Shown here one piece after another: positions 2,937 through 23,093 of a stretch of DNA of 43,898 nucleotides. How positions within the stretch are numbered: position 1 is the first letter of the stretch; each line of letters opens with the position of its first letter. The position numbers were made by a program, and so were the translations under genes. Source of the stretch: Bacteroidales bacterium (lineage in GTDB: Bacteria; Bacteroidota; Bacteroidia; Bacteroidales; Muribaculaceae); NCBI GenBank assembly GCA_014800605.1, contig JAAVFS010000066.1:1-43898 (forward strand). The letters run 5' to 3'. The notes under the pieces were generated by a model that made no database searches, was not told the origin of the DNA, and saw only the letters and a program-made list of their open reading frames with translations.

Positions 2937-2939
2937 ACG

Positions 2940-3215: not shown

Positions 3216-3223
3216 TATATTTG
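3216..3223 (+). promoter_or_regulatory. -7 element TATATTTG upstream of the DUF4434-like gene/PUL
   Basis: Matches the TAnnTTTG consensus; about 110 nt upstream of the ATG at 3334. Confidence 0.5.
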
Positions 3224-3333
3224 TGCGATAAATGCGCTCATACGCCCCGTTCACAGCGGGCGCCAAGCGCACCAAAACATAAGAGTGTAGACTTAAAACT
3301 AATTATATCATAGAATTACTGAATAATACCATT

Positions 3334-4431
3334 ATGACCGACCGTAGACAATTTCTTAAGAGCATGGCTATGATGGGTGCAGCTGCAGCCGCCGCTACTC
3401 CTATCGCCAAAGCTGCTCAGGGTGTACTCTCCACCACTCCCTCCAAAATAATTATGCCCCCATCGGCCGGCGACCTTCTCATAAAGAATGCCGGGCTCCC
3501 CATCACGGGCACATTCCTCGATGAAATCTCGCACGACATCCCTCACCAGAACTGGGGAGAGAAAGAGTGGGAGCAGGACTTCCTCAACATGAAAGCCATC
3601 GGCATCGACACCGTCATCATGATTCGCTCTGGCTACCGTAAGTTTATCACTTACCCGTCGCCCTACCTGATGAAGAAGCATAACTGCTATATGCCTTCCA
3701 AAGACCTCCTGGACATGTTCCTGCGTCTGGCCGATAAGCACAACATGAAGTTCTACTTCGGACTCTACGACTCAGGCCGCTACTGGGACACCCACGACAT
3801 GTCATGGGAAGTAGAGGACAACAAGTATGTCATCGACGAAGTATGGGAAAATTACGGACAGCATCACCCCAGCTTCCAGGGTTGGTATATCAGCGGTGAA
3901 ATCAGCCGTGCCACCAAGGGAGCTATCGACGCCTTCCACACCATGGGCAAGCAGTGTAAGGACGTATCCAACGGCCTTCCCACCTTCATCTCCCCCTGGA
4001 TCGACGGTAAGAAGGCTGCTATGGCAGCCTCTGACAAGCTGACAAAGGAAGAGGGCGTATCTGTAGCCGAACACGAAAAAGAGTGGAACGAAATCTTCGA
4101 CGGCATCCACGATGTAGTCGATGCTTGCGCCTTCCAGGATGGCCACATCGACTATGACGAGCTCGACGCCTTCTTCGAAGTCAATAAAAAGCTCGCCGAC
4201 AAGTATGGAATGCAGTGCTGGACCAATGCCGAGTCATTCGACCGCGACATGCCGATCCGCTTCCTCCCCATCAAGTTTGACAAGCTGCGCATGAAGCTCG
4301 AAGCCGCCAAGCGCGCCGGCTACGACAAGGCGATCACATTCGAATTCAGCCACTTCATGAGCCCCCAGTCAGCCTACCTGCAGGCCGGCCATCTCTACGA
4401 CCGCTACAAAGAATACTTTGAGCTCGGCTAA
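3334..4431 (+). CDS. Tat-signal DUF4434-like (glycosidase-like) protein
   Basis: MTDRRQFLKSMAMMGAAAAAATP twin-arginine signal; GTFLDEISHDIPHQNWGEKEWEQDFLNMKAIGIDTVIMIRSGY and a TIM-barrel-like pattern resembling DUF4434. Confidence 0.8.
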   Translation: MTDRRQFLKSMAMMGAAAAAATPIAKAAQGVLSTTPSKIIMPPSAGDLLIKNAGLPITGTFLDEISHDIPHQNWGEKEWEQDFLNMKAIGIDTVIMIRSGYRKFITYPSPYLMKKHNCYMPSKDLLDMFLRLADKHNMKFYFGLYDSGRYWDTHDMSWEVEDNKYVIDEVWENYGQHHPSFQGWYISGEISRATKGAIDAFHTMGKQCKDVSNGLPTFISPWIDGKKAAMAASDKLTKEEGVSVAEHEKEWNEIFDGIHDVVDACAFQDGHIDYDELDAFFEVNKKLADKYGMQCWTNAESFDRDMPIRFLPIKFDKLRMKLEAAKRAGYDKAITFEFSHFMSPQSAYLQAGHLYDRYKEYFELG

Positions 4432-4651
4432 GCCGTCCCCCACGGATAGCGGTTCACGCCTAACACATTGACTTCAATATCGACAGCCTTAAAAACCAAC
4501 CTACCGACCATGAAGCTATCAGGCAATGACATAACAGGTCAGACTGCCGGCGCAAGCATCGACTTTATGAGCGCCGCAGGCCACCCGTATATCCTGACAG
4601 CCTATTTTATGGAAGGTTGGCAAAGCGAAGACTATACACTGACATAACTGA

Positions 4652-4696
4652 ATATTGCCCGCACAAGGAGCCGAGAACTCCGCCTGCGGGCAATAT
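4652..4696. terminator. Strong hairpin between the DUF4434-like and MFS genes
   Basis: atattgcccgca...tgcgggcaatat near-perfect inverted repeat. Confidence 0.5.
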
Positions 4697-4744
4697 CATA
4701 TTATCTGATACACAACAACTAAACCAACTTATCACAGTAAAATA

Positions 4745-6184
4745 ATGAAAGAAGACAAAGACTATCGCTTCGGCTACATCCTGCTGCTGTCGATCATCGC
4801 AGCAATGGGCGGCTTCCTCTTCGGCTATGACGAAGCAGTCATCTCCGGTACAGTCGAGGAAGTACAGTCGCAGTTCGGACTGAACTCACTCATGAAAGGA
4901 TGGTTTGTCAGCAGCGCGCTGCTCGGAGCCACCTTCGGCGCCCTTCTCGGAGGCGGCCTCAGCGACTACTTCGGCCGCAAGCGCACAATGATCACCTCGG
5001 CAATCCTCTTCGCCATCTCGATGGTAGGTTGCGCATTTGCCGGCAACTTCACCCTTCTCGTAGTCTTCCGCATCATAGGCGGCATGGGCATCGGCGTGGC
5101 CTCAATCGTCTGCCCGATGTATATCTCCGAGATCGCCGTAGCCCGTTCACGCGGCATGCTCGTAGCCCTCTATCAGCTCGCCGTAACAATCGGAGTGCTT
5201 GGCGCTTACGTCTCCAACTTCTACCTGCTCAAATACGCTCAGACAGCCGTCGCTACCGAAGGCTGGACAAGCTATATCTTCGTCAGCGAGTGGTGGCGCG
5301 GAATGCTCGGCGTCGGCGTCGTACCCTCACTGATCTTCCTCATCTGCGTCCTCTTCCTCCCCGAGTCGCCCCGCTGGCTCGTGCTCAAAGGCCGCACACA
5401 GCGCGCCGAAGGCATCCTCGGACGCATCTACACCAACCTTTCTGAGATCAAGCATCAGATCCGCGAGACCCTCGACGTAGCAGCCAACTCTACCAGTGTG
5501 GGCTATGCAGCACTCTGGAAACCCGGCATCCGCCGCGCCGTCATCATCGGCGTCTGCATCGCGATGCTCGGCCAGTTCATGGGCGTCAACGCCGTGCTCT
5601 ACTACGGTCCAACCATCTTCAAGGACGCCGGCATCGCACAGGACAACGCCTTCCTCTATCAGGTGCTCATCGGCGCCGCCAACACCATCACCACCATCGT
5701 GGCCATGTTCATCATCGACCGTGTAGGCCGTAAGGCGCTCATCTACTATGGCGTCAGCGGCATGATCATCGCCCTTCTGGCCATCGCAGCCTACTTCCAG
5801 TGGGGCACTGCCCTCGAGATCAGCAGCGCTTGGCTTCTGGCCTTCTTCATCATTTACATCGTCTGCTGCGCCGGATCTATCTGCGCCATCATCTTCGTAA
5901 TACTCAGCGAGATGTATCCGCTGGCAGTGCGCGGTGTGGCAATGTCCGTAGCCGGCATCGCCCTGTGGATCGCCACCTTCCTCGTAGGCCAGCTGACCCC
6001 CTGGATGCTCTCTACCCTCACCCCCCAGGGCACATTCCTCATCTTCGCCTTCTGCTGTATCCCCTATGTATGGATCATGTGGAAGCAGGTGCCCGACACC
6101 ACCGGCAAGTCGCTCGAAGAGATCGAAGCCTACTGGCTCAAAGACGACCTCAAGCGCACAGCACGCGACATCGAGAAACAGTAA
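4745..6184 (+). CDS. MFS sugar porter family transporter
   Basis: 479 aa, GGFLFGYDEAVISG, DYFGRKRTM, PESPRWLVLKGR, RVGRKALI, PDTTGKSLEEIE motifs. Confidence 0.92.
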   Translation: MKEDKDYRFGYILLLSIIAAMGGFLFGYDEAVISGTVEEVQSQFGLNSLMKGWFVSSALLGATFGALLGGGLSDYFGRKRTMITSAILFAISMVGCAFAGNFTLLVVFRIIGGMGIGVASIVCPMYISEIAVARSRGMLVALYQLAVTIGVLGAYVSNFYLLKYAQTAVATEGWTSYIFVSEWWRGMLGVGVVPSLIFLICVLFLPESPRWLVLKGRTQRAEGILGRIYTNLSEIKHQIRETLDVAANSTSVGYAALWKPGIRRAVIIGVCIAMLGQFMGVNAVLYYGPTIFKDAGIAQDNAFLYQVLIGAANTITTIVAMFIIDRVGRKALIYYGVSGMIIALLAIAAYFQWGTALEISSAWLLAFFIIYIVCCAGSICAIIFVILSEMYPLAVRGVAMSVAGIALWIATFLVGQLTPWMLSTLTPQGTFLIFAFCCIPYVWIMWKQVPDTTGKSLEEIEAYWLKDDLKRTARDIEKQ

Positions 6185-6226
6185 ACCGTAGAAATTATAT
6201 CATATCACAATTAATTCGTAATAACA

Positions 6227-7411
6227 ATGGCAGATTTTAAAGCGCTTGCACAGCAGTATAAGTCTGAGCTCCTCGACAATGTGCTCCCCTTCTGGCTGCA
6301 GAACTCGCAAGACAAAGAATTCGGAGGATATTTCTCCTGCCTCAACCGCGACGGTAGCGTCTATGACACCGACAAATTCATCTGGCTCCAGGGCCGTGAA
6401 GTATGGATGTTCGCTATGCTCTACAACAAGGTTGAGAAGCGTCCCGAATGGCTCGAAGCAGCCGTGCAGGGCGGTGAATTCCTCAAAAAGTATGGCCACG
6501 ACGGCAACTTCAACTGGTACTTCTCGCTGACACGTGACGGCCAGCCCATCGTCGACCCCTACAACATCTTCAGCTACACCTTTGCTACCATGGCATTCGG
6601 CCAGCTCGCCATCGCCACCGGCAACAAGGAGTATGCCGAAATCGCCAAAAAGACATTCGACATCATCCTCTCCAAAGTCGACAATCCCAAAGGCAAGTGG
6701 AACAAGCTCCACGCCGGCACTCGCCCCCTGAAGAACTTCGCCCTGCCGATGATCCTCTGTAACCTCGCTCTTGAGATCCAGGACCTCCTCGACGAAGAGT
6801 TCCTCCAGAAGACTATCGACACCTGCATCTCAGAAGTCGAGCAGTTCATCCGCCCCGAGCTCGGTGGCCTCGTTGTCGAGAACATCGGTGTCGACGGCTC
6901 ACTCGTTGACTGCTACGAAGGACGCCACATGAATCCCGGCCACTCTATCGAGGCTATGTGGTTTATGATGGACCTGGGCAAGCGCCTCAACCGCCCCGAA
7001 CTCATCGAAGCCGCCAAGAACACAGCCCTCAAGATGGCTGAATACGGCTGGGACAAGGAATTCGGCGGTATATTCTACTTCATGGACCTCAAAGGCTTCC
7101 CCCCGCAGGAGCTCGAATGGGACCAGAAGCTCTGGTGGGTACACATCGAGACACTCATCACCATGATCAAGGGCTACCAGATGACAGGCGATCCCAAATG
7201 CCTCGAATGGTTTGAGAAGGTACACAACTACGCCTGGGAGCACTTCAAAGACAAAGAGTATCCCGAATGGTTCGGCTACCTCAACCGTCGCGGTGAAGTC
7301 CTCCTCCCCCTCAAGGGCGGCAAATGGAAAGGCTGCTTCCACGTTCCGCGCGGCATGTATCAGTGCTGGCAGATCCTTGAAGAGCTCGCCTCTCGCCCCG
7401 AGAACGCCTGA
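6227..7411 (+). CDS. AGE family epimerase/isomerase (N-acylglucosamine 2-epimerase-like)
   Basis: 394 aa; GGYFSCLNRDGSVYDTDKFIWLQGREVW, GRHMNPGHSIEAMWFMM, WWVHIETL, CFHVPRGMYQCW. Confidence 0.9.
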   Translation: MADFKALAQQYKSELLDNVLPFWLQNSQDKEFGGYFSCLNRDGSVYDTDKFIWLQGREVWMFAMLYNKVEKRPEWLEAAVQGGEFLKKYGHDGNFNWYFSLTRDGQPIVDPYNIFSYTFATMAFGQLAIATGNKEYAEIAKKTFDIILSKVDNPKGKWNKLHAGTRPLKNFALPMILCNLALEIQDLLDEEFLQKTIDTCISEVEQFIRPELGGLVVENIGVDGSLVDCYEGRHMNPGHSIEAMWFMMDLGKRLNRPELIEAAKNTALKMAEYGWDKEFGGIFYFMDLKGFPPQELEWDQKLWWVHIETLITMIKGYQMTGDPKCLEWFEKVHNYAWEHFKDKEYPEWFGYLNRRGEVLLPLKGGKWKGCFHVPRGMYQCWQILEELASRPENA

Positions 7412-7654
7412 TCACCATCACATCACAATTGCTTACAACAGGGACGCGACACAGTGAGCTGACCCCTCTCCACCTAAAGGACACATTGACACTGAACGCT
7501 CTTCCTCCCTCCCCATCAGGAATTTCAATGACTTTTACCATCACTGATACCATATAAAACCCTGCTCCCGCAGTTGTCAGCATCAGCTAATCAGCAACAA
7601 CGCAAATAACTATTTATAAACCAAAACAATTATCAAACGCTAATCCTTAAACTT

Positions 7655-10600
7655 ATGGTAAAGCAAATGAAATCATCTGCCACGGGCATGATTTGTAAGC
7701 TATCGCTGTGGGTCGTGATGGTCTGCGTGGGGGCTTTAGCCTCTTGGGCGCAGGTCACAGGTACCGTAGTCGATACTAATGACGATCCATTACCCGGCGT
7801 ATCTGTGCTCATCAAGGGCTCAAATGCAGGCGTGTCTACCAACATCGATGGTGAATACTCTATCGATGCTGCTCCCGACGCGACCCTCATCTTCCGCTAC
7901 GTCGGCATGGAAGAACAGACTGTCAAAGTTGCCGGCCGCAAAGTCGTCAACGTTGTAATGCAGAACTCTGACGCTACTCTCGACGAAGTCGTTGTAGTAG
8001 GCTACGGTCAGCAGAAACGTGGTACCATCACCGGTGCCGTATCCTCAGTAAGCGGTTCAGAACTTCTGAACGCTCCCACAATGTCAGTCTCCAACCTCGT
8101 TGGCTCTCGCGTAGCAGGTGTGTCATCACTCCAGTCGTCAGGCCAGCCCGGTGCCGATAATGCTACCCTCTACCTCCGCGGTCAGTCAGGCATTATCTAT
8201 GTGATCGACGGCGTGAAGCGTACTTCCGAAGACTTCAACCAGCTCGACCCCAACGACATCGATCAGGTATCTATCCTTAAGGACGCTGCTTCGGTAGCCA
8301 TCTACGGTCTTGATGCCAACGGTGTAATCATCGTCACCACCAAGCGCGGTAACACTAACGAAAAGACCACTATCAAATATACCGGTTCAGTAGGTATCTC
8401 TCAGAACGCCGAAGACCAGGAATGGCTCGACGGCCCCGGCTACGCCTACTGGTTCAACCGCGGTCTCGAAATGGACGGACTCTCTCCCATCTTCACCGAA
8501 GAACATGTCCGCAAGATGCAGCTCGGAATCGACGGATGGGGCAACACCAACTGGTATAAGAAAGTGTTCGGCACCGGCTTCCGCACATCTCACAATGTCA
8601 GCGTAGAAGGCGGTAGCGAAAAGGTTAAATTCTTCGCATCTGTCAGCTACCTCAAGGAAGACGGTAACGTCGACAACTTCTCATTCGACCGCTGGAACGT
8701 ACGCTCCAACCTCGACGCCAACATCGGCTACGGCCTCAAATTCTCTCTCGGCGTATCAGGCCGCATGCAGAAGCAGGACAACCCCTACTACTCTGCAAAC
8801 CCCGATGCCTACGGTAACATCGGCGCACAGATGGTACGCGCACTCCCCTACCTCCCCGAGACAGTAGAATATCAGGGCAAGTCTTACTATGTAGGTAACA
8901 TCTCTAACGGTATGAACTCATCTGTTCTCGCCTCTATCTACGATAGCGGCTACACCCGTTATGACTACAACAACTTCCAGACCACAATGTCACTCCAGTG
9001 GGATACCCCCTTCCTCAAGGGTCTTACCGCTAAGTTCACAGCTGCCTACGATGCCAACTTCAACTTCTCCAAGCAGCTCAACAACCCTGCCAACATCATG
9101 CTCTACAAGAATGGTGCCGCATCATTCGTAGCTCCCGATGTCCTGGAGTATATGCCCTATGTCAACTTCAACAATGGCTACATTGCCCTGAATGAAGGTG
9201 CCTCCAAAAACAGCACTCTCACCACCCTGACAACTCTCGCCTACAACAACAATTTCGGCGACCACCACATCGACGCCCTCTTCCTCGCTGAGACTCGCGA
9301 CTACCGCACCAACAGCCTCGCTGCCTACGGTTACGGTCTCGACTTCATCGAGCTCGACGAGCTTGACAAAATCTCCAACCTCACATTCAAGGGCGAGCAG
9401 AAGAACCCCGCCGTCGGTGGTAACAGCAGTTCTTCTCGCGTAGCCGGCTTCGCTGTTCGCGCCAACTATAACTATGCCGACCGCTACTTCGTAGAGGCTT
9501 CCGTACGTCGCGACGGTAGCTATCTCTTCGGCGGTATGAACAAGCGCTGGGTCAACCTCCCCGGTGTATCTCTCGGCTGGCGTATCGACCGCGAAGACTT
9601 CTTCACTGCCGATTTCGTCCAGATGCTTAAGATCCGCGCAGGCTTCGGTCAGACCGCTACCTCAGGCATCAGCCCCTTCCAGTGGCGTAACACAATGGGC
9701 CTCAACAAGAATGGAGTCGTTCTCGGCGGCGCTTCTCAGCCCTACATCTCAGCCTCAGTACTTGGCAACCCCCATCTGACATGGTCTAAGTGCGACAACT
9801 ACAACGTAGGTTTCGATGCTACTCTCTGGAATGGCCTCCTCGGCGCCGAGTTTGACGTATTCTACAAATACGCCTATGACCAGCTCACCGGCGCTACCGG
9901 ATCATATCCCCCCTCAATGGGTGGCTACTACTACTCAGCTGCCAACCTCAACAAGACCGACTACCGCGGTTTCGACGTGACACTTACTCACAACAACAAG
10001 GTAGGCGACTTCAGCTATGGCGTCAAGCTCATCTGGTCATACGCCTACGGCCGATACCTCTATGTAGCATCTGACTCTGACAATGACCCCGACTATCAGC
10101 GCCTGACCGGCAAGCAGGTAGGCTCTAAGCTCGGCTTCATCTCCAACGGCCTCTTCCAGACTCAGGAAGAAATCGACAACGCTCCCTATCCCGAAATCTC
10201 CAACACCCGCGGCGTACTGCTCGGCAACATCAAGTATATCGACCGCAACGGCGACGGTAAGATCACCTACGACGGCGATATGGGCTATGTAGGCAAATCA
10301 AGCATGCCTACCCACTCAGGCTCGCTCAACCTCTTCGGCCAGTGGAAAGGCTTCGACTTCGACCTCCTCTTCTCTTGGGGTCTCGGCCACGAAGTAGCTC
10401 TGACCGGTGTCTACACAGCTACCGGTTCTGAAGGCTACATGGACCACACCTCTTACACTCTTCCCTTCAAGTGGTATGGTAACTCTCCCGTCTACCTCGT
10501 AGAGAACTCTTGGACTCCTGAGAATCCCAACTCAGTCTTCCCCCGTCTGTGTGCTACTCCCCAGAACAACAACGACGCTTACGCATCTACATTCTGGTAT

Positions 10601-10831
10601 AAGAACGGCGACTACCTCCGTATGAAGTCAGCCCAGATTGGCTATACCATCCCCCAGAAACTCATCCAGAAGGCCGGCATCACTCGCCTCCGTATCTTCG
10701 CCGAGGGTTACAACCTCTTCACCGTCAGCGGCCTCTCCAACTACAACATCGACCCCGAAGCTCCCGCTGTTAACAACGGTTACTACCCCCAGCAGCGTAA
10801 GTTCTCGTTCGGTATCAACCTTTCATTCTAA
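7655..10831 (+). CDS. SusC/RagA family TonB-linked outer-membrane protein
   Basis: 1058 aa; carboxypeptidase-regulatory-like N-domain VTGTVVDTNDDPLPGVSVLIKG, TLDEVVVVGYGQQKRGTITGAV plug, C-terminal beta-barrel ending FSFGINLSF. Confidence 0.95.
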   Translation: MVKQMKSSATGMICKLSLWVVMVCVGALASWAQVTGTVVDTNDDPLPGVSVLIKGSNAGVSTNIDGEYSIDAAPDATLIFRYVGMEEQTVKVAGRKVVNVVMQNSDATLDEVVVVGYGQQKRGTITGAVSSVSGSELLNAPTMSVSNLVGSRVAGVSSLQSSGQPGADNATLYLRGQSGIIYVIDGVKRTSEDFNQLDPNDIDQVSILKDAASVAIYGLDANGVIIVTTKRGNTNEKTTIKYTGSVGISQNAEDQEWLDGPGYAYWFNRGLEMDGLSPIFTEEHVRKMQLGIDGWGNTNWYKKVFGTGFRTSHNVSVEGGSEKVKFFASVSYLKEDGNVDNFSFDRWNVRSNLDANIGYGLKFSLGVSGRMQKQDNPYYSANPDAYGNIGAQMVRALPYLPETVEYQGKSYYVGNISNGMNSSVLASIYDSGYTRYDYNNFQTTMSLQWDTPFLKGLTAKFTAAYDANFNFSKQLNNPANIMLYKNGAASFVAPDVLEYMPYVNFNNGYIALNEGASKNSTLTTLTTLAYNNNFGDHHIDALFLAETRDYRTNSLAAYGYGLDFIELDELDKISNLTFKGEQKNPAVGGNSSSSRVAGFAVRANYNYADRYFVEASVRRDGSYLFGGMNKRWVNLPGVSLGWRIDREDFFTADFVQMLKIRAGFGQTATSGISPFQWRNTMGLNKNGVVLGGASQPYISASVLGNPHLTWSKCDNYNVGFDATLWNGLLGAEFDVFYKYAYDQLTGATGSYPPSMGGYYYSAANLNKTDYRGFDVTLTHNNKVGDFSYGVKLIWSYAYGRYLYVASDSDNDPDYQRLTGKQVGSKLGFISNGLFQTQEEIDNAPYPEISNTRGVLLGNIKYIDRNGDGKITYDGDMGYVGKSSMPTHSGSLNLFGQWKGFDFDLLFSWGLGHEVALTGVYTATGSEGYMDHTSYTLPFKWYGNSPVYLVENSWTPENPNSVFPRLCATPQNNNDAYASTFWYKNGDYLRMKSAQIGYTIPQKLIQKAGITRLRIFAEGYNLFTVSGLSNYNIDPEAPAVNNGYYPQQRKFSFGINLSF

Positions 10832-10845
10832 TCGCATTTCCTAAT

Positions 10846-12465: not shown

Positions 12466-12502
12466 GCGAATTTCATCAACAAATCTGAATATGTACTAAA
12501 AA

Positions 12503-12579
12503 TCGTAAAATAGTGGGTTTGCTACACAATAGGCCCATATAGGTGTCGTTATTAAGTAGCAAACACACTTGATTTACGA
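12503..12579. promoter_or_regulatory. Intra-operonic hairpin between susD and the downstream lipoprotein gene
   Basis: Nested arms tcgtaaa/tttacga (12503-12509/12573-12579), agtg/cact, gtttgctac/gtagcaaac (12517-12525/12556-12564). Confidence 0.55.
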
Positions 12580-12623
12580 AACACACTACTAATCATTAGA
12601 CATATTCTTAATCAACCAAAGCA

Positions 12624-14393: not shown

Positions 14394-14418
14394 ACAATCA
14401 TTATCTCTGATTTACGCA

Positions 14419-15852
14419 ATGAACATTTCTAAAATACTGAAGCTTAATCTCGCCGCCATCGCGGCGGCGGGATTATTCTCCCTCTCATCCTGCTCGGACG
14501 ATTCCGACGGATTCAAGCTCTGGGGCGATGCCGAAACCAACGTTCCAGTCCTCAAGCCCCGCTACATCTGGGTTGACGCAGCTTCCAACTTCGTCGACTT
14601 CGCCAATAGCCAGGACAACATCAAGCGCGACCTCACCCTCGCCAAGGAGTCAGGATTTACCGACATCGTAGTCGACGTACGCACTACCAGCGGCAACATC
14701 CTATTCAAGTCCGACCTTGCCCCCCAGGTGACAGCCGTATACACTTGGGCATATCTGGACGAGAACGGCGAACGCAACACACGCAAGCGCACTGTATATC
14801 GCACAGCCAACTTTGACTATCTCCAGACATTCATCGAAGAAGGTCACAAGCTCGGACTCAAGATCCACGCCGGATTCAACACCATGACCGGTGGGCACGC
14901 CGAAGCCGGACCGGAAGGCTCCCCCACAGGCGTGCTCTTCACCGACCCCGCCAAAAAGGAGTGGGCTACCTGGGGCTGGAACAACGGCCAGCCTAAGACC
15001 GTCATGGAGCTCAGCCAGGCAGAAAAATTCTTCAACCCCGGTCACCCCGAAGTTCAGGAATACATCTGCGACCTCCTCAGAGACCTCGCCAAGTACGACC
15101 TCGATGGTATCGTACTCGACCGTGGCCGCTACAACGACCTCTACAGCGACTTCTCTCCTCTGAGCCAGAAGCAGTTTGAGGAATATATCGGCGTGAAACT
15201 CGCCAAGTTCCCCGGCGACATCCTCCCCAAAGGCTCTCAGGCAGCCACTCTCGGCAAGGAATACGGCCCATACACCACCAAGTGGCTCGAATTCCGCGCC
15301 AAGACCATCCACGACTTCATGGCCAAGGCTCGCGATGCTGTCAAGGGCGTTAACCCCAACATCACCTTCGGCGTATATGTTGGCGGCTGGTACAACAGCT
15401 ACTACAACACCGGTGTCAACTGGGCATCAAAGAAATTTGACCCCTCTAAGACCCTCGCATGGGCATCCACCGGCTATAAGAAATATGGCTATGCCGACCT
15501 GATGGACCAGATCCTCATCGGCGCCTACGCTAACCCGACCGCTGTCAACGGCACAACAGAATGGACAATGCAGGGATTCTGCAGCCAGGCTAAAATGAAG
15601 ATCGGCGACGCTTGTCCCCTCGTGATCGGTGGTCCCGATGTCGACTGGCGCTGGGAAGGCTCAAGCGCTCAGTATAGCAAGGACCAGATTCTTAACGCCA
15701 TCAAGAACTCCGTAGTTGCTTGCGCATCCGCTTGCGACGGCTACTTCCTCTTCGACATGATCCACCTCAAGATCGACCCCGAGAAGTGGGATGCAATAGC
15801 TGAAGGCAACAACGGCTACGTCAAGGACTGGGAGGATACCTACGGAAAATAA
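14419..15852 (+). CDS. GHL10/DUF187-like family 10 glycosylhydrolase-like lipoprotein
   Basis: 477 aa; LSSCSDDSD lipobox; KPRYIWVDA...IKRDLTLAKESGFTDIVVDVRTTSG, HPEVQEYICDLLRDLAKYDLDGIVLDRGRY. Confidence 0.8.
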   Translation: MNISKILKLNLAAIAAAGLFSLSSCSDDSDGFKLWGDAETNVPVLKPRYIWVDAASNFVDFANSQDNIKRDLTLAKESGFTDIVVDVRTTSGNILFKSDLAPQVTAVYTWAYLDENGERNTRKRTVYRTANFDYLQTFIEEGHKLGLKIHAGFNTMTGGHAEAGPEGSPTGVLFTDPAKKEWATWGWNNGQPKTVMELSQAEKFFNPGHPEVQEYICDLLRDLAKYDLDGIVLDRGRYNDLYSDFSPLSQKQFEEYIGVKLAKFPGDILPKGSQAATLGKEYGPYTTKWLEFRAKTIHDFMAKARDAVKGVNPNITFGVYVGGWYNSYYNTGVNWASKKFDPSKTLAWASTGYKKYGYADLMDQILIGAYANPTAVNGTTEWTMQGFCSQAKMKIGDACPLVIGGPDVDWRWEGSSAQYSKDQILNAIKNSVVACASACDGYFLFDMIHLKIDPEKWDAIAEGNNGYVKDWEDTYGK

Positions 15853-15889
15853 ACCCAATTACATCCTTCTTACTATCTAATTACCACAC

Positions 15890-15927
15890 ATCCGCCTGCG
15901 GCCTAACCCCGCAGGCGGATTTTTTTT
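15890..15927 (+). terminator. Rho-independent terminator
   Basis: atccgcctgcgg-cctaacc-ccgcaggcggat followed by a T8 run. Confidence 0.85.
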
Positions 15928-16022
15928 GTCCCTTGACGTGCCTGACTTTTGAAAAAATTTTAGTAAATTCGGCCTCAAATTATATCATCTTATATTAATT
16001 CAAAATTACCAATCATCTCATC

Positions 16023-17462
16023 ATGAAAAAATACATCCTCGCTGCGCTCGCACTAGCCTCAGCTATGGGCATCACCGCCTCAGCTCGCACCCTGATCGGT
16101 CGTGTCAACTCCCCCGACGGCCCCCTCACCGGAGTCACCGTATCCGATGGCTTCACCTGCACTCTGACCGACGATGCCGGACAGTTTGTCATCGACGCTG
16201 ACCCCGACGCCAACTTCGTCTACGTCTCCACCCCCGCAGGCTATCTGCCACCCGTCGACTCCCTCTGCCACCCCCACTTCTATATCCCCGTCACCGAGGA
16301 GACCGAAATCTACGAATTCAATCTCCTGAAAAATCCGCGCGACGACCGCCATCACGCCTTCATGACTCAGGCCGACATCCAGGTCGTAGCCGAAGAGGAG
16401 CTGGTCGAATATGACCGCCAGGTTGCCGATGCCCGAGAGTATATGAGTTCCCTGGGCGACCTCGACATCTTCGCACTCGACTGCGGCGACATCGTAGGCG
16501 ACCACCCCGAGCTCTATCCCTCAAGTCTCCGCCACAGAGCAGCCCTCGGATTCCCCGTCTACTACGTGATGGGCAACCACGACATGGAGTACACCGGTCG
16601 CACCCACGAGACCTCGCGCCACCGCTTCGAGCGCAACATCGGCCCCAGCAACTACTCATTCAACCGCGGCGACGTACATTACGTCGCTGTCGACAACTGC
16701 TTCTATATCGGCCGCGACTACTTCTACATGGGCTACCTTGACGAGCGCACCCTCCGCTGGCTCGAGCAGGATCTCGCCAATGTCCCCGAAGGCTCTACTG
16801 TAGTGATGTTCATGCACATCCCCTTGAAAAACGAGGCAGGCACACAACCCTTCCGCTACGACGGCAAGTCCGTTTCGCAGGAGACCGTCAACGCCAACGC
16901 CCTCATCTCGCTACTCCAGCCCTACAACGTCCACATGATCACCGGCCACCAGCACTGGAACAACAACGTCGAGCATGCCGACAACCTCTATGAGCACAAC
17001 ACAGCTGCTGCTTGCGGCCTCTGGTGGCAGACACCCGTATGCGAGGACGGCACCCCCCGCGGCTATGGCGTCTACAATGTCAACGGCTCCGACATCGACT
17101 GGCTCTTCAAGTCGACCGGCTTCCCCGCCGACCATCAGATGCGCGTCTACCTCCCCGGCGCCACCAAGGCTGCTCCCGAAAGCGTCGTAGCCAACATCTG
17201 GAATGCCGACTCAGCCTGGAAAGTAGAGTGGCTTGAAGATGGCAAGGTCATGGGCGAAATGGAACGCTTCACCGCCACCGACCCCCTGACACTCTCGATG
17301 ATCGCCGACCGCTCCAAACTCAAATACCCTTGGACAGCCGCATCTCCCACCAACCACATGTACAAGGCTACACCCGTCAACCCCGACGCCAAGATCAGCG
17401 TACGCGCCACCGACCGCTTCGGTCGCGTCTTCCAGGCTGACGCTCAGGCTATCACAGAATAA
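16023..17462 (+). CDS. Calcineurin-like metallophosphoesterase with N- and C-terminal accessory domains
   Basis: 479 aa; signal peptide; LDCGDIVGDHPELY, YYVMGNHDMEY, MFMHIPL, ITGHQHWNNN metallophosphoesterase motifs. Confidence 0.88.
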   Translation: MKKYILAALALASAMGITASARTLIGRVNSPDGPLTGVTVSDGFTCTLTDDAGQFVIDADPDANFVYVSTPAGYLPPVDSLCHPHFYIPVTEETEIYEFNLLKNPRDDRHHAFMTQADIQVVAEEELVEYDRQVADAREYMSSLGDLDIFALDCGDIVGDHPELYPSSLRHRAALGFPVYYVMGNHDMEYTGRTHETSRHRFERNIGPSNYSFNRGDVHYVAVDNCFYIGRDYFYMGYLDERTLRWLEQDLANVPEGSTVVMFMHIPLKNEAGTQPFRYDGKSVSQETVNANALISLLQPYNVHMITGHQHWNNNVEHADNLYEHNTAAACGLWWQTPVCEDGTPRGYGVYNVNGSDIDWLFKSTGFPADHQMRVYLPGATKAAPESVVANIWNADSAWKVEWLEDGKVMGEMERFTATDPLTLSMIADRSKLKYPWTAASPTNHMYKATPVNPDAKISVRATDRFGRVFQADAQAITE

Positions 17463-17473
17463 CAATCCCCGCC

Positions 17474-18955
17474 ATGAAACGTGCAGACTCACTCGACACA
17501 ATGCGCGGACTGACCATCGGCATGATGGTGCTCTGCGGCTCAATAATTACATCCGTTCTACCCGACTGGATGGCCCACTGTCAGGTGCCCCCCGGCCGCG
17601 GATTCGACCCCTCGATCTACGGAATCACCTGGGTCGACCTCGTCTTCCCCTTCTTCCTCTTCGCCATGGGTGCCGCGATGCCCTTCTCTGTCGGCTCGAG
17701 AATGGAGCGCGGTGCCTCAGGCTTCCGTGTGCTCCGCGACGCCATCTGGCGCGGACTTAAGCTCGCTTATTTCGCCATATTCATCCAGAACTGCTACCCC
17801 TGGATAGTCAAAAACTACCTCGATCGACCCGCCGACCCAGGCATCTGGGCCTTTACCATCTGTGCATTCATAGTCCTCTTCCTCCTGTTCATGCGCCTGC
17901 CCGCCGGCGCCCCAAAATGGATTCGCCGACTGATGCCCGTCGCCGGCCTGCTGATCTCATGCAGCATGATGGGTTGGCTCGAAAGCCATGTCACCCTCTC
18001 GGCCGACTATCTCGCTACCGACCCGTCAGCATTCGACATCTTCATCAAGCACGTCAACAATGTCCTCTACAAGAGCAACATCATCATCCTCGTCCTTGGC
18101 AACATGGCCGCCTTCGGCACTGTCATCTATATCCTGACCATGAACAAACCGATGGCCCGCATCGCCATCCTCCCCTTCATCATGGCCATCAACCTCGGCT
18201 CCGCCACTGCCGACTCATGGCAGCAGGCCGTCTTCAACTGGACCCCCTGCGGATGGCTCTACCGATTTGACTTCCTCAAATACCTCTTCATCATCATCCC
18301 CGGCACCATCGCCGGCGAATACCTCCGCAACTGGATCCGCCAGTCCGAAGATGAAGCCCACCGCCAGATCAAGGGGAGCAGCAACGACGGCGTCTCGACA
18401 GCCACCGTCGCATTCCTCTCGCTCGCAGTCATCGCAGTCAATGTCATCCTGCTCTTCGGCCGCCATCTCGTGGCCAACCTCTTCGTGACAGCAGCCATCA
18501 TCGTCCTCATCAACGGAGGCGCACGTCGCGTCGGCGCCAACCTGCGCGTCATCCCCTCCCTTGTCAAAGCCGGAGCCTACCTGCTGATGCTCGGACTCTT
18601 TTTTGAAGCCTTCGAGGGCGGCATCCGCAAAGACCACGCCACCTATAGCTACTACTTCGTCACCTCCGGACTGGCCTTCTACTGCCTGACCCTGCTGTTC
18701 ATCATCTGCGATGTCTACGGATGGCGCAAACTGATGTCGCCGCTGACCCTCGCCGGACGCAACCCGATGATAGCCTACGTCGCCACATCAATGTTCTTCG
18801 GCCCGATCTTCATGATCCTCGGCATCTACGACCCCCTCGTAGAGTGGGGATGCACATCATGGGTCACCTCGATGCTCTTCGGCCTCATGTTCACCGCCCT
18901 TGCCCTCGGCCTCGCAGCCATCTTCTCACGTCTCCGCCTCTACTGGCGCACATAA
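17474..18955 (+). CDS. DUF5009/HGSNAT-like multi-TM acyltransferase
   Basis: 493 aa; KRADSLDTMRGLTIGMMVLCG, ITWVDLVFPFFLFAMGAAMPFS; about 10 hydrophobic segments. Confidence 0.82.
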   Translation: MKRADSLDTMRGLTIGMMVLCGSIITSVLPDWMAHCQVPPGRGFDPSIYGITWVDLVFPFFLFAMGAAMPFSVGSRMERGASGFRVLRDAIWRGLKLAYFAIFIQNCYPWIVKNYLDRPADPGIWAFTICAFIVLFLLFMRLPAGAPKWIRRLMPVAGLLISCSMMGWLESHVTLSADYLATDPSAFDIFIKHVNNVLYKSNIIILVLGNMAAFGTVIYILTMNKPMARIAILPFIMAINLGSATADSWQQAVFNWTPCGWLYRFDFLKYLFIIIPGTIAGEYLRNWIRQSEDEAHRQIKGSSNDGVSTATVAFLSLAVIAVNVILLFGRHLVANLFVTAAIIVLINGGARRVGANLRVIPSLVKAGAYLLMLGLFFEAFEGGIRKDHATYSYYFVTSGLAFYCLTLLFIICDVYGWRKLMSPLTLAGRNPMIAYVATSMFFGPIFMILGIYDPLVEWGCTSWVTSMLFGLMFTALALGLAAIFSRLRLYWRT

Positions 18956-18989
18956 TCCCCTCCTGCATACCAATAACATATCTACCAAG

Positions 18990-20120
18990 ATGAAAAAAGT
19001 CATATTTTCACTCCTCTCAGCCGTAGCCATCACTTCATCGGTTTTCGCTGCTGACAACAACACCGTCTGGCACTCAGCCGACACACTCCCCCTCCTCGGC
19101 AAAGGGATCGACCCCGCCTCAACAGTCATGCGCTATCAGCGTCTTCCTGACTCGATGAAGACCAAGGTGAAGCGCGACGCCGTCTACTACCTCGGCACCA
19201 ACTCCGCCGGCATGGCCATCCGCTTCGCATCCGACGCCCCCGCCATCGACATCAAGTGGAAATCGCTCTATAAGAACCTGATGAACCACCAGACCCCGAC
19301 AGGCACCCGTGGTCTCGACCTCTACACCCTCCTTCCCGACTCAACCTGGACATTCGTCAATAGCGCGCGCCCCGATGTCAACAACCACTTCACATCGGCC
19401 AATGTCATCTCCAACATGGACCCCGTCATGCGCGAATACCTCCTCTACCTCCCTCTCTATGACGGCATTGACTCACTCTATATCGGAACCGGACGCGACT
19501 ATGTCGTGACCGCGCCCAAAGTCGATGTGCTCATCCCCGGCTCGGCAGCTACACCCAAACCCATAGTCATGTACGGCACCAGCCTCCTCCAGGGCGGCTG
19601 CGCCAACCGTCCCGGCATGGCTCACTCCAACATCATCACCCGCCGACTCAATCGCCCCGTGCTCAACTTCGGTTTCAGCGGCAATGGTCAGCTCGACCTT
19701 GAGATCGCCGAGATCCTTGCCGCCATCCCTGATCCCGCGATGTACGTCCTCGACTTCGTGCCCAATGTCAATGAGCAGCAGATCGAGGAGCAGATGATCC
19801 CCTTCGTCGAGATCATCGAGAAAGCCCACCCCGGTGTGCCCATCCTCTTCCCCGAAGACCCCCGCTTCCCCCACGCACGCTTCGACAAGAAGATGCGCCA
19901 CGAAGTCGACTATCGCAACCTGCTCATGAAGGAGAAATTTGACATCCTCTCTCAGCAGTACCCCAACCTGGTCTTCCTCCCCTCGATCGACTTCGCCGGC
20001 CACGACCATGAGGCCTTTGTCGACGGCATCCACTACACCGACCTCGGCTTCGTGCGCTATGCCAATGTCCTTGAGCCGATCCTCCGCGAAATGATTGCCA
20101 ACTCTGAATCCAAAAAATGA
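18990..20120 (+). CDS. SGNH/GDSL hydrolase with N-terminal GxDLY domain, paralog 1
   Basis: Start trimmed to MKKVIFSLLSAV; GTRGLDLYTLLPDSTW, YGTSLLQGGCANRPGM, FSGNGQLDLE, DGIHYTDLG. Confidence 0.88.
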   Translation: MKKVIFSLLSAVAITSSVFAADNNTVWHSADTLPLLGKGIDPASTVMRYQRLPDSMKTKVKRDAVYYLGTNSAGMAIRFASDAPAIDIKWKSLYKNLMNHQTPTGTRGLDLYTLLPDSTWTFVNSARPDVNNHFTSANVISNMDPVMREYLLYLPLYDGIDSLYIGTGRDYVVTAPKVDVLIPGSAATPKPIVMYGTSLLQGGCANRPGMAHSNIITRRLNRPVLNFGFSGNGQLDLEIAEILAAIPDPAMYVLDFVPNVNEQQIEEQMIPFVEIIEKAHPGVPILFPEDPRFPHARFDKKMRHEVDYRNLLMKEKFDILSQQYPNLVFLPSIDFAGHDHEAFVDGIHYTDLGFVRYANVLEPILREMIANSESKK

Positions 20121-21214
20121 TGAGACGCATCTCATTGATAGTCACTGCGGCACTCGCCGCACTCACAGCCTCAGCCGGCACCCGTTGGGTGTCGGCTGAC
20201 TCGCTTCCCCTCCTGGGTAAATGTGTCGACCCCACCTCGACTTCCTATCGCTACCAGCGCATTCCGGACTCGCTCGAGCACAAAGTCAAGCGCCCCGACC
20301 TCTTCCGCCTTGGCCGCAACTCGGCCGGCATGGCTATCCGCTTCGCCACCGATGCCCCCGCCATAAGTCTCAAGTGGAAGTCGACCCAGCGCAACCTGAT
20401 GAACCACATGACCCCGACAGGCACCCGCGGCCTCGACCTCTACACCCTCCTGCCCGACTCCACCTGGACCTTCGTGCAGTCAGGTCGTCCCGACCCCACG
20501 AAAGCTGTGACCGAGACATGTGTCATCAAAAACATGACACCCGAGCAGCGCGAATACATGCTCTACCTGTCACTCTATGACGGCGTCGACTCCCTCTTTA
20601 TCGGCGTCCCCGACGGCTACACAATCTCAGTCCCCGCCGTCCCGCTCCCCCGGGCCGAAAAGCCTATCATCTACTACGGCACAAGCCTAACTCAGGGAGG
20701 CTGCGCCAACCGCCCCGGCATGGTCCACACCAATATCATCGGACGCCGACTCAATCGCGACGTAGTCAACCTCGGCTTCAGCGGCAATGGTCAGCTCGAC
20801 CTCGAGATAGCAGATGTCATGGCAGCCGTCCACGATCCGGCGCTCTACGTACTCGACTTCCTCCCCAACGTCAACAATCAGCAGCTTGACACCCTCTTCA
20901 TACCCTTCGTCGACATCCTGCGTAACGCCCATCCGACAGTGCCGATCCTCGTCATCGAGGATCCCGACTACCCCTACAAGCGCTTCGACTGCACAGCTCA
21001 GGCCCGCGTCGAGAGCCGCCGCGAGCTCCTCAAGCAGATCATGGACCGCCTGCTCGCAGCCGACCCCAACGTCTACTTCCTCCCCTCGCCCGGACTGATC
21101 GGCGACGATGGCGAGCCCTCAGTCGACGGACTCCACTTCACCGACATAGGCTTCACCCGCTATGCCGACAATATTCTCCCCACAATCATCCAAATCCTCA
21201 ACCCGAATGAATAG
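20117..21214 (+). CDS. SGNH/GDSL hydrolase with N-terminal GxDLY domain, paralog 2
   Basis: Overlaps the previous stop by 4 bp (ATGA); GTRGLDLYTLLPDSTW, YGTSLTQGGCANRPGM, DGLHFTDIG. Confidence 0.88.
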   Translation: MMRRISLIVTAALAALTASAGTRWVSADSLPLLGKCVDPTSTSYRYQRIPDSLEHKVKRPDLFRLGRNSAGMAIRFATDAPAISLKWKSTQRNLMNHMTPTGTRGLDLYTLLPDSTWTFVQSGRPDPTKAVTETCVIKNMTPEQREYMLYLSLYDGVDSLFIGVPDGYTISVPAVPLPRAEKPIIYYGTSLTQGGCANRPGMVHTNIIGRRLNRDVVNLGFSGNGQLDLEIADVMAAVHDPALYVLDFLPNVNNQQLDTLFIPFVDILRNAHPTVPILVIEDPDYPYKRFDCTAQARVESRRELLKQIMDRLLAADPNVYFLPSPGLIGDDGEPSVDGLHFTDIGFTRYADNILPTIIQILNPNE

Positions 21215-22301
21215 ACTCCTCTCTCTGCTGCTCATCACCCTCTCGGCCATGGCAGCCTCAGCAGGCTCCATCAAGTGGCACTCCGCCGACTCGCTCCCCC
21301 TGCTGGGCAAAGCCGTCGACGACGCCTCGACCTCATCACGATTCCAGCGTCTCCCCGACTCGCTCGAGCACAAAGTCAAGCGCCCCGTACTCTTCGGCCT
21401 CGGCCGCCACTCTGCCGGCATGGCTATCCGTTTCACATCTGATAGCCCCGAGATCCATGCCCGCTGGAAATCGCGCTTCAAGAGCATCATGGACCACATG
21501 ACCCCCACAGGCACCCGCGGCCTCGACCTCTACGTAATGCTCCCCGACTCCTCATGGACATTCGCCCAGACAGCGCGTCCCGACCTCGCCTCACACACCA
21601 CCGAGACCTGCGTCATCAGCAATATGCCCGCAGGTCAGCATGAATACCTGCTCTACCTGTCGCTCTACGACGCTGTCGACTCCCTCTATATCGGTGTCCC
21701 CCGGGAGTATAGCCTTACCGCACCGGCCATCAACCATCCCCGCGCCGAGGCGCCGATAGTCTACTACGGTACGAGCCTCGTACATGGCGGATGCGTCAAC
21801 CGTCCCGGCATGGCCCACACCAACATCCTGCGCCGGCGCCTCGACCGCGATGTCATCAACCTCGGCTTCGGCGGCAACGGCCAGCTCGACCTCGAGATCG
21901 CCGACGTCATCGCCGCCGTCAAAGACCCCTCGCTGGTTATCCTCGACTTCGTGCCCAACTGCTCCAGCGCCCAGATCGACACCCTCATGATCCCCTTTGT
22001 CGACAAGATCCGCGCTGCCCACCCCTCAGTGCCCATCCTCTTCGTCGAGTGCCTCCCACACCCCCGATGCCGGTTTGACAACGTGATGAAAGCCGCCGTC
22101 GAGCGCCATAACGCCATGATGCGACGCCGCTACGACGACCTGACCGAACGCTACGACCACCTCTACTACATGCCGACAGCCGACATCTTCGGCGACGACA
22201 ATGAGCACACCGTCGATGCCCTCCATCTCACTGACATGGGAGCCCTCCGCTTTGCCGATGCCATGGAGCCCGTCATCCGCGAGATCCTCGCCAAGGAGTA
22301 G
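21207..22301 (+). CDS. SGNH/GDSL hydrolase with N-terminal GxDLY domain, paralog 3
   Basis: Start trimmed to MNRLLSLLLITLSAMAASAG, overlapping the previous stop; GTRGLDLYVMLPDSSW, YGTSLVHGGCVNRPGM, FGGNGQLDLE, DALHLTDMG. Confidence 0.87.
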   Translation: MNRLLSLLLITLSAMAASAGSIKWHSADSLPLLGKAVDDASTSSRFQRLPDSLEHKVKRPVLFGLGRHSAGMAIRFTSDSPEIHARWKSRFKSIMDHMTPTGTRGLDLYVMLPDSSWTFAQTARPDLASHTTETCVISNMPAGQHEYLLYLSLYDAVDSLYIGVPREYSLTAPAINHPRAEAPIVYYGTSLVHGGCVNRPGMAHTNILRRRLDRDVINLGFGGNGQLDLEIADVIAAVKDPSLVILDFVPNCSSAQIDTLMIPFVDKIRAAHPSVPILFVECLPHPRCRFDNVMKAAVERHNAMMRRRYDDLTERYDHLYYMPTADIFGDDNEHTVDALHLTDMGALRFADAMEPVIREILAKE

Positions 22302-22382
22302 CGTTAACATTTATTGTCCGAGCCACGACGGGATTTGTCGCCGAGTTTTCTTAACTTTGTCACCTGACCCTCCCCACTGTCA

Positions 22383-23093
22383 ATGAAGAAATTTACACTC
22401 TATATGCTCGCGGCGCTGACGGCCATGATCATCATGACTTCGGCCAAATCATCCAAGCGCAACTCGATGCCCAAAGGCATCGACCTGGAACAGGTGCGCG
22501 CCGAGGTCAACGATCCAAAGTCCGAATTCTTCTACGACTCGCTGATGGCAGCCTTTGAGCGCGTCGACACGTCGATGACCCTCGAAGACTATCGATACCT
22601 CTACTTCGGGACCATGTTTCGCGAAGACTATAACCCCTATCGCCGCAACGCCTATACCGACATCATCAACCCGCTGACCCACAAAGCCACCCACACCCGC
22701 GCCGAGTGCGACACGCTGATGAAGTACACACAGCTCGCCCTGCTTGACACCCCCTTCGATCTTGCGCAGATCAACTTCCTCATCTACGCCCTCCGCTCCA
22801 AGCAGAAATACAATGAAGCCGACATCTGGCAGTATCGCCTCAACCATCTGCTGCAAGCTATCGTCTCCACCGGCTCAGGGGCCGATACCACCTCAGCGTG
22901 GTATGTCATCTACCCGCGCGATGAAGCCACGATAGTCAATATCGGCAAGAACGTGCAGACCCTCCGCCCCACCTTCATCGAGCCCTACTACGACTGCATC
23001 GAGGTGACCGACGATCAGGGCAAGAAGCAGGACTTCTACTTCAACATCTCCCCCGTCCTCGACGAATACTACCTCAAGTTTCCCGAAGACTGA
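22383..23093 (+). CDS. DUF4919-like protein
   Basis: 236 aa; signal peptide; FERVDTSMTLEDYRYLYFGTMFREDYNPYRRN. Confidence 0.75.
   Translation: MKKFTLYMLAALTAMIIMTSAKSSKRNSMPKGIDLEQVRAEVNDPKSEFFYDSLMAAFERVDTSMTLEDYRYLYFGTMFREDYNPYRRNAYTDIINPLTHKATHTRAECDTLMKYTQLALLDTPFDLAQINFLIYALRSKQKYNEADIWQYRLNHLLQAIVSTGSGADTTSAWYVIYPRDEATIVNIGKNVQTLRPTFIEPYYDCIEVTDDQGKKQDFYFNISPVLDEYYLKFPED

Follow-up and report, generated by a model that had tools for sequence, protein, structure and literature searches.

Among the orphan PULs known in Bacteroidota is the BT0446-BT0453-type locus of Bacteroides thetaiotaomicron, which is reported to be induced in vivo, in the host, by an unidentified glycan (PMC6989115). 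In the literature on its substrate, no enzyme of this locus was found with a tested substrate. With reference to Briliute et al. 2019, a passage of PMC7531118 describes BT0451-BT0461 as a 'recently characterized N-glycan PUL', and this span would include the orthologues of the SusC and SusD genes described below. Two other described systems are relevant through the GHL10 protein that such loci encode: according to excerpts of PMC6016235 and PMC5765458, Cwp19 and PgaB both act on GlcNAc-containing polymers.

The window analysed here is the whole of a stretch of 43,898 nucleotides from a Muribaculaceae bacterium (contig JAAVFS010000066.1). Its ORFs and their Pfam/NCBIfam matches define a SusC/SusD locus at 3334-22301, all genes of which are co-directional on the + strand, with inter-ORF distances of 11 to 313 bases or overlaps. 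The locus begins with a DUF4434 protein carrying a TAT-type signal (3334-4431; PF14488, E 8.3e-89), followed by a sugar-porter-family MFS transporter of the inner membrane (4745-6184; PF00083, E 1.9e-104; TIGR00879, 352.3 bits against a cut-off of 237.8) and an N-acyl-D-glucosamine 2-epimerase (AGE; 6227-7411). The SusC/RagA outer-membrane TonB-dependent transporter (7655-10831; TIGR04056, 821.6 against 368.25 bits) and the SusD-family outer-membrane lipoprotein (10846-12465; PF07980, E 1e-54; PF14322, E 5.5e-21) are adjacent, 14 bases apart, as is characteristic of a PUL. Downstream lie a DUF5018 lipoprotein (12624-14393; PF16410, E 2.8e-78), a GHL10 protein with a DUF4985 C-terminus (14419-15852; PF16373, 96.6 against 39.3 bits), a secreted three-domain metallophosphoesterase (MetallophosN/Metallophos/MetallophosC; 16023-17462; PF16371/PF00149/PF16370), a DUF5009 polytopic membrane protein (17474-18955; PF16401, E 4.8e-60) and three GxDLY plus SGNH (Lipase_GDSL_3) esterases, at 18900-20120 (PF14606, E 3.6e-55; PF14607, E 4.9e-39), 20117-21214 (PF14606, E 5e-55; solved relative 4lhs, E 2.7e-52) and 21162-22301 (PF14606, E 9e-52). 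Because signal-peptide-like sequences begin near 18990 and 21207, the first and third esterases probably start at internal ATGs near these positions. The first-pass annotation had described a co-directional run around the SusC/SusD pair with these components, and every part that it named is identified on the + strand, the MFS, AGE, DUF4434, GHL10, metallophosphoesterase and three SGNH proteins all by Pfam/NCBIfam models. Its statement that the locus has no standard GH or PL agrees with the Pfam scan, in which no protein of the run matches a classical family; the carbohydrate-active candidates linked to SusC/SusD are GHL10, DUF4434 and esterase families only. The annotated span ran on to 23093 and took in a DUF4919 gene (22383-23093, + strand; PF16266, E 8.3e-56); none of the gene clusters that recur across the related loci contains this gene, and it probably lies outside the locus proper.

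Relatives were sought with GHL10 as the only seed, and the best 80 of 149 across Bacteroidota were analysed; together with one further locus (L044) and the window they formed the clustering set of 82 loci. Clusters were named from one Pfam-scanned representative each or from the window member, and ORFs were picked as the longest non-overlapping ones, which are sometimes antisense, for example the long antisense ORFs over SusC. With loci ending at contig ends or at the 10 kb flank, all counts are lower bounds: SusD is present in at least 69 of the 82 loci, DUF5018 in at least 68, SusC in at least 64, the phosphoesterase in at least 51, DUF4434 in at least 42, AGE in at least 37, DUF5009 in at least 36, NAGPA in at least 26, MFS and the window-type SGNH in at least 20 each, ROK in at least 10 and SASA in at least 9. 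Since searching by GHL10 alone brings up this set again and again, the gene association exceeds chance, and the locus represents a PUL type that is conserved and recurring, not a newly assembled one. The first-pass annotation had taken the gene set as the mark of an uncharacterised glycan substrate, a view that an identical characterised PUL would overturn, and the N-glycan label in the passage of PMC7531118 bears on this point; the claim holds, with the amendment that the locus belongs to a recurring type whose substrate class can be narrowed.

Within the best 80 of 149 loci, a NAGPA phosphodiester glycosidase is found in 29 and GH20 in 8; ROK/NagC-like regulators are present in some related loci, and the esterases come from unrelated families (SGNH, CE2, SASA, GDSL). 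In the same 80 of 149, DUF4855 (1/80), MurU-like (2/80), AmgK/RapZ-like (1/80) and GDPD (0/80) neighbours are rare and constitute weak leads. The window locus itself carries neither NAGPA nor GDPD. Elsewhere in its own genome, NAGPA, DUF4855 and GH20 stand together on one contig, and GDPD, GH89 and a SASA-GHL10/GH20/ROK cluster are also encoded; Bacteroides relatives have a twin locus with GH89 plus DUF4855-GDPD.

DigH is a GHL10 protein. The window member belongs to the same family by its PF02638 match (66.4 bits against a gathering cut-off of 27.9) and the TIM-barrel fold of its predicted model (mean pLDDT 92.0). The closest solved structure is Cwp19 (Z 32.7, rmsd 2.8, 325 aligned), followed by the C-terminal domain of PgaB (Z 27.7, rmsd 3.4, 332 aligned, 14% identity). 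The proposed catalytic Asp196 of Cwp19 aligns with R235 of the window family, which is Arg in 49 of 51 sequences; transfer of the lytic transglycosylase mechanism of Cwp19 to this protein was therefore rejected. Its lipobox, followed by acidic residues, suggests that the lipoprotein is probably surface-exposed. A new finding in the relatives is that GHL10 shares a polypeptide with other enzymes: 10 full-length proteins join it to the phosphoesterase, and 4 join it to a SASA esterase.

The closest solved structure of the DUF4434 protein is 4h41, labelled 'putative alpha-L-fucosidase' (E 2.4e-193 over 317 residues). Recent transfer of this gene was considered and rejected, as its GC of 0.54 is like that of its neighbours and plain sequence conservation accounts for the similarity of the protein (75-81% in other loci, among the tblastn matches listed). 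The AlphaFold model of DUF5018 (mean pLDDT 87.5) predicts a beta-rich N-terminal part and a C-terminal beta-propeller, with Foldseek matches to 4ftd (DUF4623) and the levan utilisome chain 8aa2_G and propeller matches of Z about 22, which makes it a probable surface glycan-binding protein. The phosphoesterase has the conserved metal-binding motifs of calcineurin-like enzymes: D118, Q120, D156, N185, H186, H265, H309 and H311 form the metal site, and the motifs D118, Q120, G155-D156, G184-N-H-D187, H265, G308-H309 and H311 are invariant in 14 of 14 aligned sequences. For DUF5009, annotated at first pass as a HGSNAT-like acyltransferase, a weak match to PDB HGSNAT chains was recovered (E 1.9e-8), but the resemblance is remote and the score against the NCBIfam NagX model NF046061 (41.9 bits) is far below its cut-off of 480.

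The AGE has solved relatives and passes the NCBIfam equivalog cut-off for N-acylglucosamine 2-epimerase (NF052547, 694 against 600 bits). In 80 Bacteroides genomes, two AGE classes differ in their nanA linkage, a new finding: the window-type class has a nanA-like gene within 25 kb in 0 of 31 cases and the phosphoesterase within this distance in 16 of 31, whereas the second class has a nanA-like gene within 1 kb in 25 of 28. A sialic-acid label thus misfits the window AGE. The scanned window proteins include no nanA, and in the window's own assembly (85% complete) there is no BNR_3 sialidase match, while the single match to the nanA model scores 106.4 bits, below the cut-off of 382, and is interpreted as DapA-like. 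Given these results and the 0/80 count of nanA-like DHDPS in the best 80 of 149 loci, a role of the AGE in sialic-acid catabolism was rejected.

With moderate confidence, we read the run as a BT0446-BT0453-type orthologue joined to a DUF4434-MFS pair, most likely taking up and degrading an O-acylated N-acetylhexosamine glycan whose phosphate is present as esters or diesters. At the cell surface, DUF5018 and SusD would capture this glycan and the GHL10 lipoprotein would cleave it, and oligosaccharides would enter via SusC. In the periplasm, the metallophosphoesterase would strip phosphate, the SGNH proteins would strip acyl esters, and DUF4434 may serve as an additional glycosidase-like enzyme. 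DUF5009 would handle amino sugars in the inner membrane, the freed sugar would be taken in by the MFS porter, and the cytoplasmic AGE would interconvert ManNAc and GlcNAc. This reading draws on the conserved set, the two kinds of GHL10 fusion and the nanA-free AGE class, as well as on the proximity of the GHL10 fold to two enzymes of GlcNAc-containing polymers. It is further supported by NAGPA, GH20 and ROK/NagC-like proteins in relatives, by GH89 and DUF4855-GDPD in Bacteroides, and by the corresponding sets in the window's own genome. Counted against it are the lack of NAGPA and GDPD in the window locus and of GDPD in the best 80 of 149, the Asp196 to R235 replacement, the N-glycan label in the passage of PMC7531118, and the fact that lipid or nucleotide phosphates could equally be the target of a phosphoesterase in a PUL.

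The teichoic-acid linkage unit is ManNAc-GlcNAc-1-phosphate on MurNAc. A PUL for bacterial cell-wall glycopolymers, namely this linkage unit and the attached peptidoglycan, is a tentative possibility at best. GHL10 would then cut the glycan, and NAGPA, encoded in relatives and elsewhere in the own genome, would open the GlcNAc-1-phosphodiester. Phosphates would be removed by the phosphoesterase and GDPD, acyl or alanyl esters would be cleaved by the esterases, and ManNAc would be channelled into GlcNAc metabolism by AGE. Such a substrate would account for an epimerase without nanA and for the fusion of phosphoesterase and glycosidase. It would likewise fit the MurU-like and AmgK/RapZ-like neighbours and the occurrence of the locus in bacteria that are not host-associated.

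A serious rival, though an unlikely one on present evidence, is that the substrate is host sialylated N- or O-glycans. AGE and MFS would handle sialic-acid-derived ManNAc, SASA/SGNH would de-O-acetylate sialic acid, and the locus would extend a neighbouring sialidase/N-glycan PUL. The N-glycan label is consistent with this, as are the naming of BT0433 as NanR, 'sialic acid; N-acetylglucosamine' (PMC3878776), the detection of BT0439 in hMOS and GOS supernatants (PMC5238430), and the Bacteroides pyogenes version, which adjoins a sialidase-type BNR protein and has a DHDPS-AGE-MFS set within 20 kb. However, the AGE and own-assembly results above argue the other way, sialidase is found in only 2 of the best 80 of 149 loci, and an excerpt of PMC5583593 describes B. 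thetaiotaomicron itself as without Neu5Ac catabolism genes. The carriers also include Labilibaculum, Maribellus, Sunxiuqinia and Niabella, genera chiefly known from non-host habitats.

A poly-N-acetylglucosamine-type biofilm exopolysaccharide is rather improbable. Here GHL10 would act like the PgaB glycosidase domain, GH20 would be dispersin-like, DUF5009 would re-acetylate glucosamine and the esterases would remove acyl groups, in line with the PgaB fold match, the GH20 genes and the presence of a HGSNAT/NagX-like protein; yet that fold is shared at low identity, and the GHL10-phosphoesterase fusion, NAGPA and the GlcNAc/ManNAc epimerase are left unexplained.

Very unlikely is a glycosaminoglycan or GPI-like glycan with alpha-glucosamine, whose terminal GlcN DUF5009 would acetylate as HGSNAT does, with GH89 removing alpha-GlcNAc and phosphoesterases removing phosphate groups. 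GH89 does adjoin AGE in the B. thetaiotaomicron relative, and DUF5009 does weakly match HGSNAT, but GH89 occurs in only 2 of the best 80 of 149 loci and the window locus has no Pfam match to a lyase, sulfatase or GH88. Moreover, passages of PMC8225759 report Bt0438, Bt3590 and Bf0576 as alpha-N-acetylglucosaminidases but single out Bt3590, and not Bt0438, for its high activity on oligosaccharides of heparosan. The least probable reading, unrelated functions in one transcription unit for general envelope-sugar salvage, would fit the differing accessory content and the varied esterase types, but the domain fusions and the common core order across Bacteroidota favour one pathway.

With its epimerase set apart from sialic-acid metabolism and its glycosidase physically linked to a phosphoesterase, this orphan PUL can be assigned testable substrate classes. 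Should it target bacterial cell walls, Gram-positive envelopes would join diet and host glycans among the materials that gut Bacteroidales graze on.

Among known systems, the B. thetaiotaomicron PUL (BT0453-BT0449/BT0446) is the nearest. The order AGE-SusC-SusD-DUF5018-GHL10-phosphoesterase-(SASA-GHL10)-DUF5009 was found in a close relative (the Bacteroides stretches L163/L164), in agreement with the BT names in PMC10434189, and the window follows it when set against these and a third stretch (L165); the Bacteroides stretches were chosen by phosphoesterase matches (29/80 genomes) or a pattern match (2/158) and are not a random sample. In the B. thetaiotaomicron type, phosphoesterase and DUF5009 flank a SASA-GHL10 fusion that the window locus lacks, and a GH89/DUF4855-GDPD PUL lies alongside; in their place, the window locus has a DUF4434-MFS pair on its upstream side and three SGNH esterases on its downstream side. 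Bacteroides nan operons likewise pair an AGE-family epimerase with an MFS transporter, but the window AGE is of the other class. Cwp19, a peptidoglycan lytic transglycosylase of C. difficile, shares the GHL10 domain and TIM-barrel fold but bears CWB2 repeats where the window protein has its DUF4985 C-terminus. Finally, the glycoside hydrolase domain of PgaB is similar in fold despite its distant sequence, and PgaB carries a deacetylase domain that the window GHL10 protein does not have.

The locus belongs to a genome of 2.02 Mb in 135 contigs (~85% complete by estimate), in which the window is the whole of contig C66. ORF and profile searches bore out, on the + strand, the parts of the first-pass annotation: DUF4434 (3334-4431), a sugar-porter MFS transporter (4745-6184), an AGE epimerase (6227-7411), SusC (7655-10831), SusD (10846-12465), DUF5018 (12624-14393), GHL10+DUF4985 (14419-15852), a three-domain metallophosphoesterase (16023-17462), DUF5009 (17474-18955) and three GxDLY-SGNH esterases (18900-22301). 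That annotation had also seen no classical GH or PL in the run, and none was matched in Pfam among its proteins. DUF5009, the HGSNAT-like acyltransferase of that annotation, bears only a distant likeness to NagX/HGSNAT. DUF4919 (22383-23093) has no counterpart among the recurrent clusters of related loci (82 loci clustered, 80 of them the best 80 of 149). Ordinary genes lie 3' of the locus, such as those for a 1-deoxyxylulose-5-phosphate synthase family protein, Omp85, PNPase, seryl-tRNA synthetase and others; the ORF at 23256-24080 has no Pfam match, is mostly overlapped by an opposite-strand ORF (23286-24035) and may not be a gene. Positions 1-3300 have a GC content of ~0.45, against 0.52-0.61 elsewhere in the window, and the small minus-strand ORFs at 1446-2117 and 2153-2671 matched no trusted family.

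Relatives were collected in one scan of genome contigs with a three-sequence GHL10 alignment as query, and the best 80 of 149 were taken. Their hosts are Muribaculaceae, Bacteroides pyogenes, Tannerella, Hoylesella, Hallella, Alistipes, other Rikenellaceae, Proteiniphilum, Prolixibacteraceae, Labilibaculum, Maribellus, Sunxiuqinia, Niabella and MAGs. When the ORFs of these 80 loci, a Bacteroides stretch (L044) and the window were clustered (n=82), the loci held GHL10 (79), SusD (69), DUF5018 (68), SusC (64), the phosphoesterase (51), DUF4434 (42), AGE (37), DUF5009 (36), FAD_oxidored (27 and 10, in two clusters), NAGPA (26), CE2 (21), MFS (20), window-type SGNH (20), GDSL_2 (18), ROK (10), SASA (9), SSF (9) and GH20 (4). 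Because the loci were picked by GHL10 alone, the recurrence of the other genes is independent evidence for a functional unit. Six-frame tblastn over the best 80 of 149 loci found NAGPA in 29/80, SASA in 9/80, GH20 in 8/80, sialidase and GH89 in 2/80 each and DUF4855 in 1/80; GDPD and nanA-like DHDPS were each found in 0/80. A PF12831 FAD-dependent oxidoreductase (clusters c8 and c14; e.g. L116 17051-18892) stands alongside the module in 44/80 of these loci. The DUF4434 protein is much better kept than the other locus proteins, at 75-81% in the tblastn matches listed from many loci, and a second DUF4434 type, ~60% identical, adjoins SusC in relatives such as L040.

GHL10 is repeatedly fused to other enzymes. 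Ten full-length proteins carry it N-terminal to the phosphoesterase (L040, L069, L073, L079, L084, L086, L094, L153, L162 and L167), with a truncated one in L161, and SASA-GHL10 fusions occur in L046 (contig C27 of the same genome), L151, L163 and L165. These counts are of proteins and not of independent events, since certain carriers come from one species or from near-identical ones: L040 and L086, both on a contig 241,890 long, are apparently one and the same B. pyogenes contig, L094 is a further B. pyogenes record, and the two relatives matched by pattern (see below) supplied L163 and L165. Bacteroides versions of the locus also hold a DUF4855-GDPD fusion (L163 10098-11903) and a GDPD-3keto-disaccharide-hydrolase fusion (L150 15657-17132). 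The metal-site motifs of the phosphoesterase are kept in 14/14 aligned sequences; one Bacteroides copy has an in-frame TAG stop (G238:C2:763142-764506).

Elsewhere in the genome, GH89 lies on C120, GDPD on C122, and NAGPA, DUF4855 and GH20 together on C14. On C27 (L046 1195-13561), two GH20 genes, the SASA-GHL10 fusion and a ROK regulator are clustered. A second PUL, on C76 (L047 1-13311), has GHL10, SusC, SusD, a DUF5018-like protein, GHL10+DUF4985, GH97 and a phosphoesterase of the locus type; the L044 stretch, from Bacteroides genome G238, shows this arrangement plus an AGE-MFS pair.

AGE matches in 80 Bacteroides genomes formed two groups, 31 above the NF052547 cut-off of 600 and 28 at ~300-356 bits; the window AGE reaches 694 bits. 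Their positions were set against nanA-like and phosphoesterase matches. Above the cut-off, a nanA-like gene lay within 25 kb in 0/31 and the phosphoesterase in 16/31; below it, a nanA-like gene lay within 1 kb in 25/28 and the phosphoesterase within 25 kb in 3/28. Two of these three are short fragments (G492, G498) that may belong to the above-cut-off group, and the third is from B. pyogenes (G230), at 17 kb. The classes split cleanly by nanA-like linkage across the 80 genomes, where "nanA-like" denotes the DHDPS family plus position, no Bacteroides match having passed the TIGR00683 cut-off. In the genome of the window, the sole TIGR00683 match (106.4 against a cut-off of 382) reads as DapA-like, and no BNR_3 sialidase was found in the ~85% present, ~15% of the genome being missing. 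An excerpt of PMC5583593 describes Neu5Ac catabolism genes as missing from B. thetaiotaomicron. By these results the common label "NanE" is a poor match for the window-type AGE, and public labels of this kind may be wrong for one of the two classes.

We lean towards an N-acetylhexosamine glycan, acylated and phosphate-bearing, as the substrate, because GHL10 is repeatedly fused to the phosphoesterase and accompanied by several unrelated esterase types, a GlcNAc/ManNAc epimerase stands outside the sialic pathway, NAGPA occurs in about one third of relatives, and there are ROK/NagC-like regulators. Signal peptides, read at the N-termini, suggest that the phosphoesterase and SGNH proteins are periplasmic, and a lipobox with acidic residues suggests a surface-exposed GHL10. 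DUF5018 has a beta-rich predicted structure with a C-terminal beta-propeller and Foldseek matches to 4ftd (DUF4623) and levan-utilisome chain 8aa2_G (204 alignment columns), consistent with a putative surface glycan binder.

A teichoic-acid linkage unit plus peptidoglycan is an unlikely substrate, offered as a hypothesis because its basis is background chemistry and rare neighbours (six-frame tblastn, MurU-like in 2/80 and AmgK/RapZ-like in 1/80 of the best 80 of 149 loci); the GDPD behind it comes from Bacteroides stretches only. Host N-/O-glycans are likewise improbable, and are kept in view because BT0451-BT0461 is described in an excerpt of PMC7531118 as a characterised N-glycan PUL, with reference to Briliute et al. 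2019, and because of the NanR (PMC3878776, BT0433) and supernatant (PMC5238430, BT0439) reports. The worth of the locus lies in the sharper substrate hypothesis.

For the GHL10 model, built from a 51-sequence alignment (mean pLDDT 92.0), the nearest fold is that of Cwp19 (Z 32.7, rmsd 2.8, 325 aligned). The C-terminal domain of PgaB comes second (Z 27.7, rmsd 3.4, 332 aligned), with GH42 and other TIM barrels behind. D86, D234 and R237 are invariant (51/51); D407 is Asp in 31/31 first members and 2/20 others, hinting at two specificities in the family. DigH we take to be a GHL10 protein. Excerpts describe DigH as a hydrolase of denuded peptidoglycan (PMC12288456) and Cwp19 as a peptidoglycan lytic transglycosylase (PMC6016235), with Asp196 as its proposed catalytic residue (PMC5765458). 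A simple carry-over of the Cwp19 mechanism is countered by R235 of the window GHL10, which takes the position of Asp196 and is Arg in 49/51.

The 20-base start of BT0438, as printed in PMC8225759, was matched in 2/158 Bacteroides genomes by pattern search, the relatives that supplied L163 and L165. One stretch (G498:C31; L163, L164) encodes AGE, GH89, SusC, SusD, a BT_3987-like/F5-F8 protein, the DUF4855-GDPD fusion, a 418-residue protein without Pfam match and CE2, then, on the opposite strand, DUF5009, SASA-GHL10, phosphoesterase, GHL10, DUF5018, SusD, SusC and AGE. The names given to BT0438-BT0451 in PMC10434189 agree with this order, so the second half corresponds to the B. thetaiotaomicron orphan PUL BT0446-BT0453; for BT0450, BT0452 and BT0453, unnamed there, we infer the assignment. 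The window differs from this type in having no SASA-GHL10, but the gene order is common to both. The observation of the first-pass annotation was correct, and the locus is a fresh example of an already known orphan PUL type.
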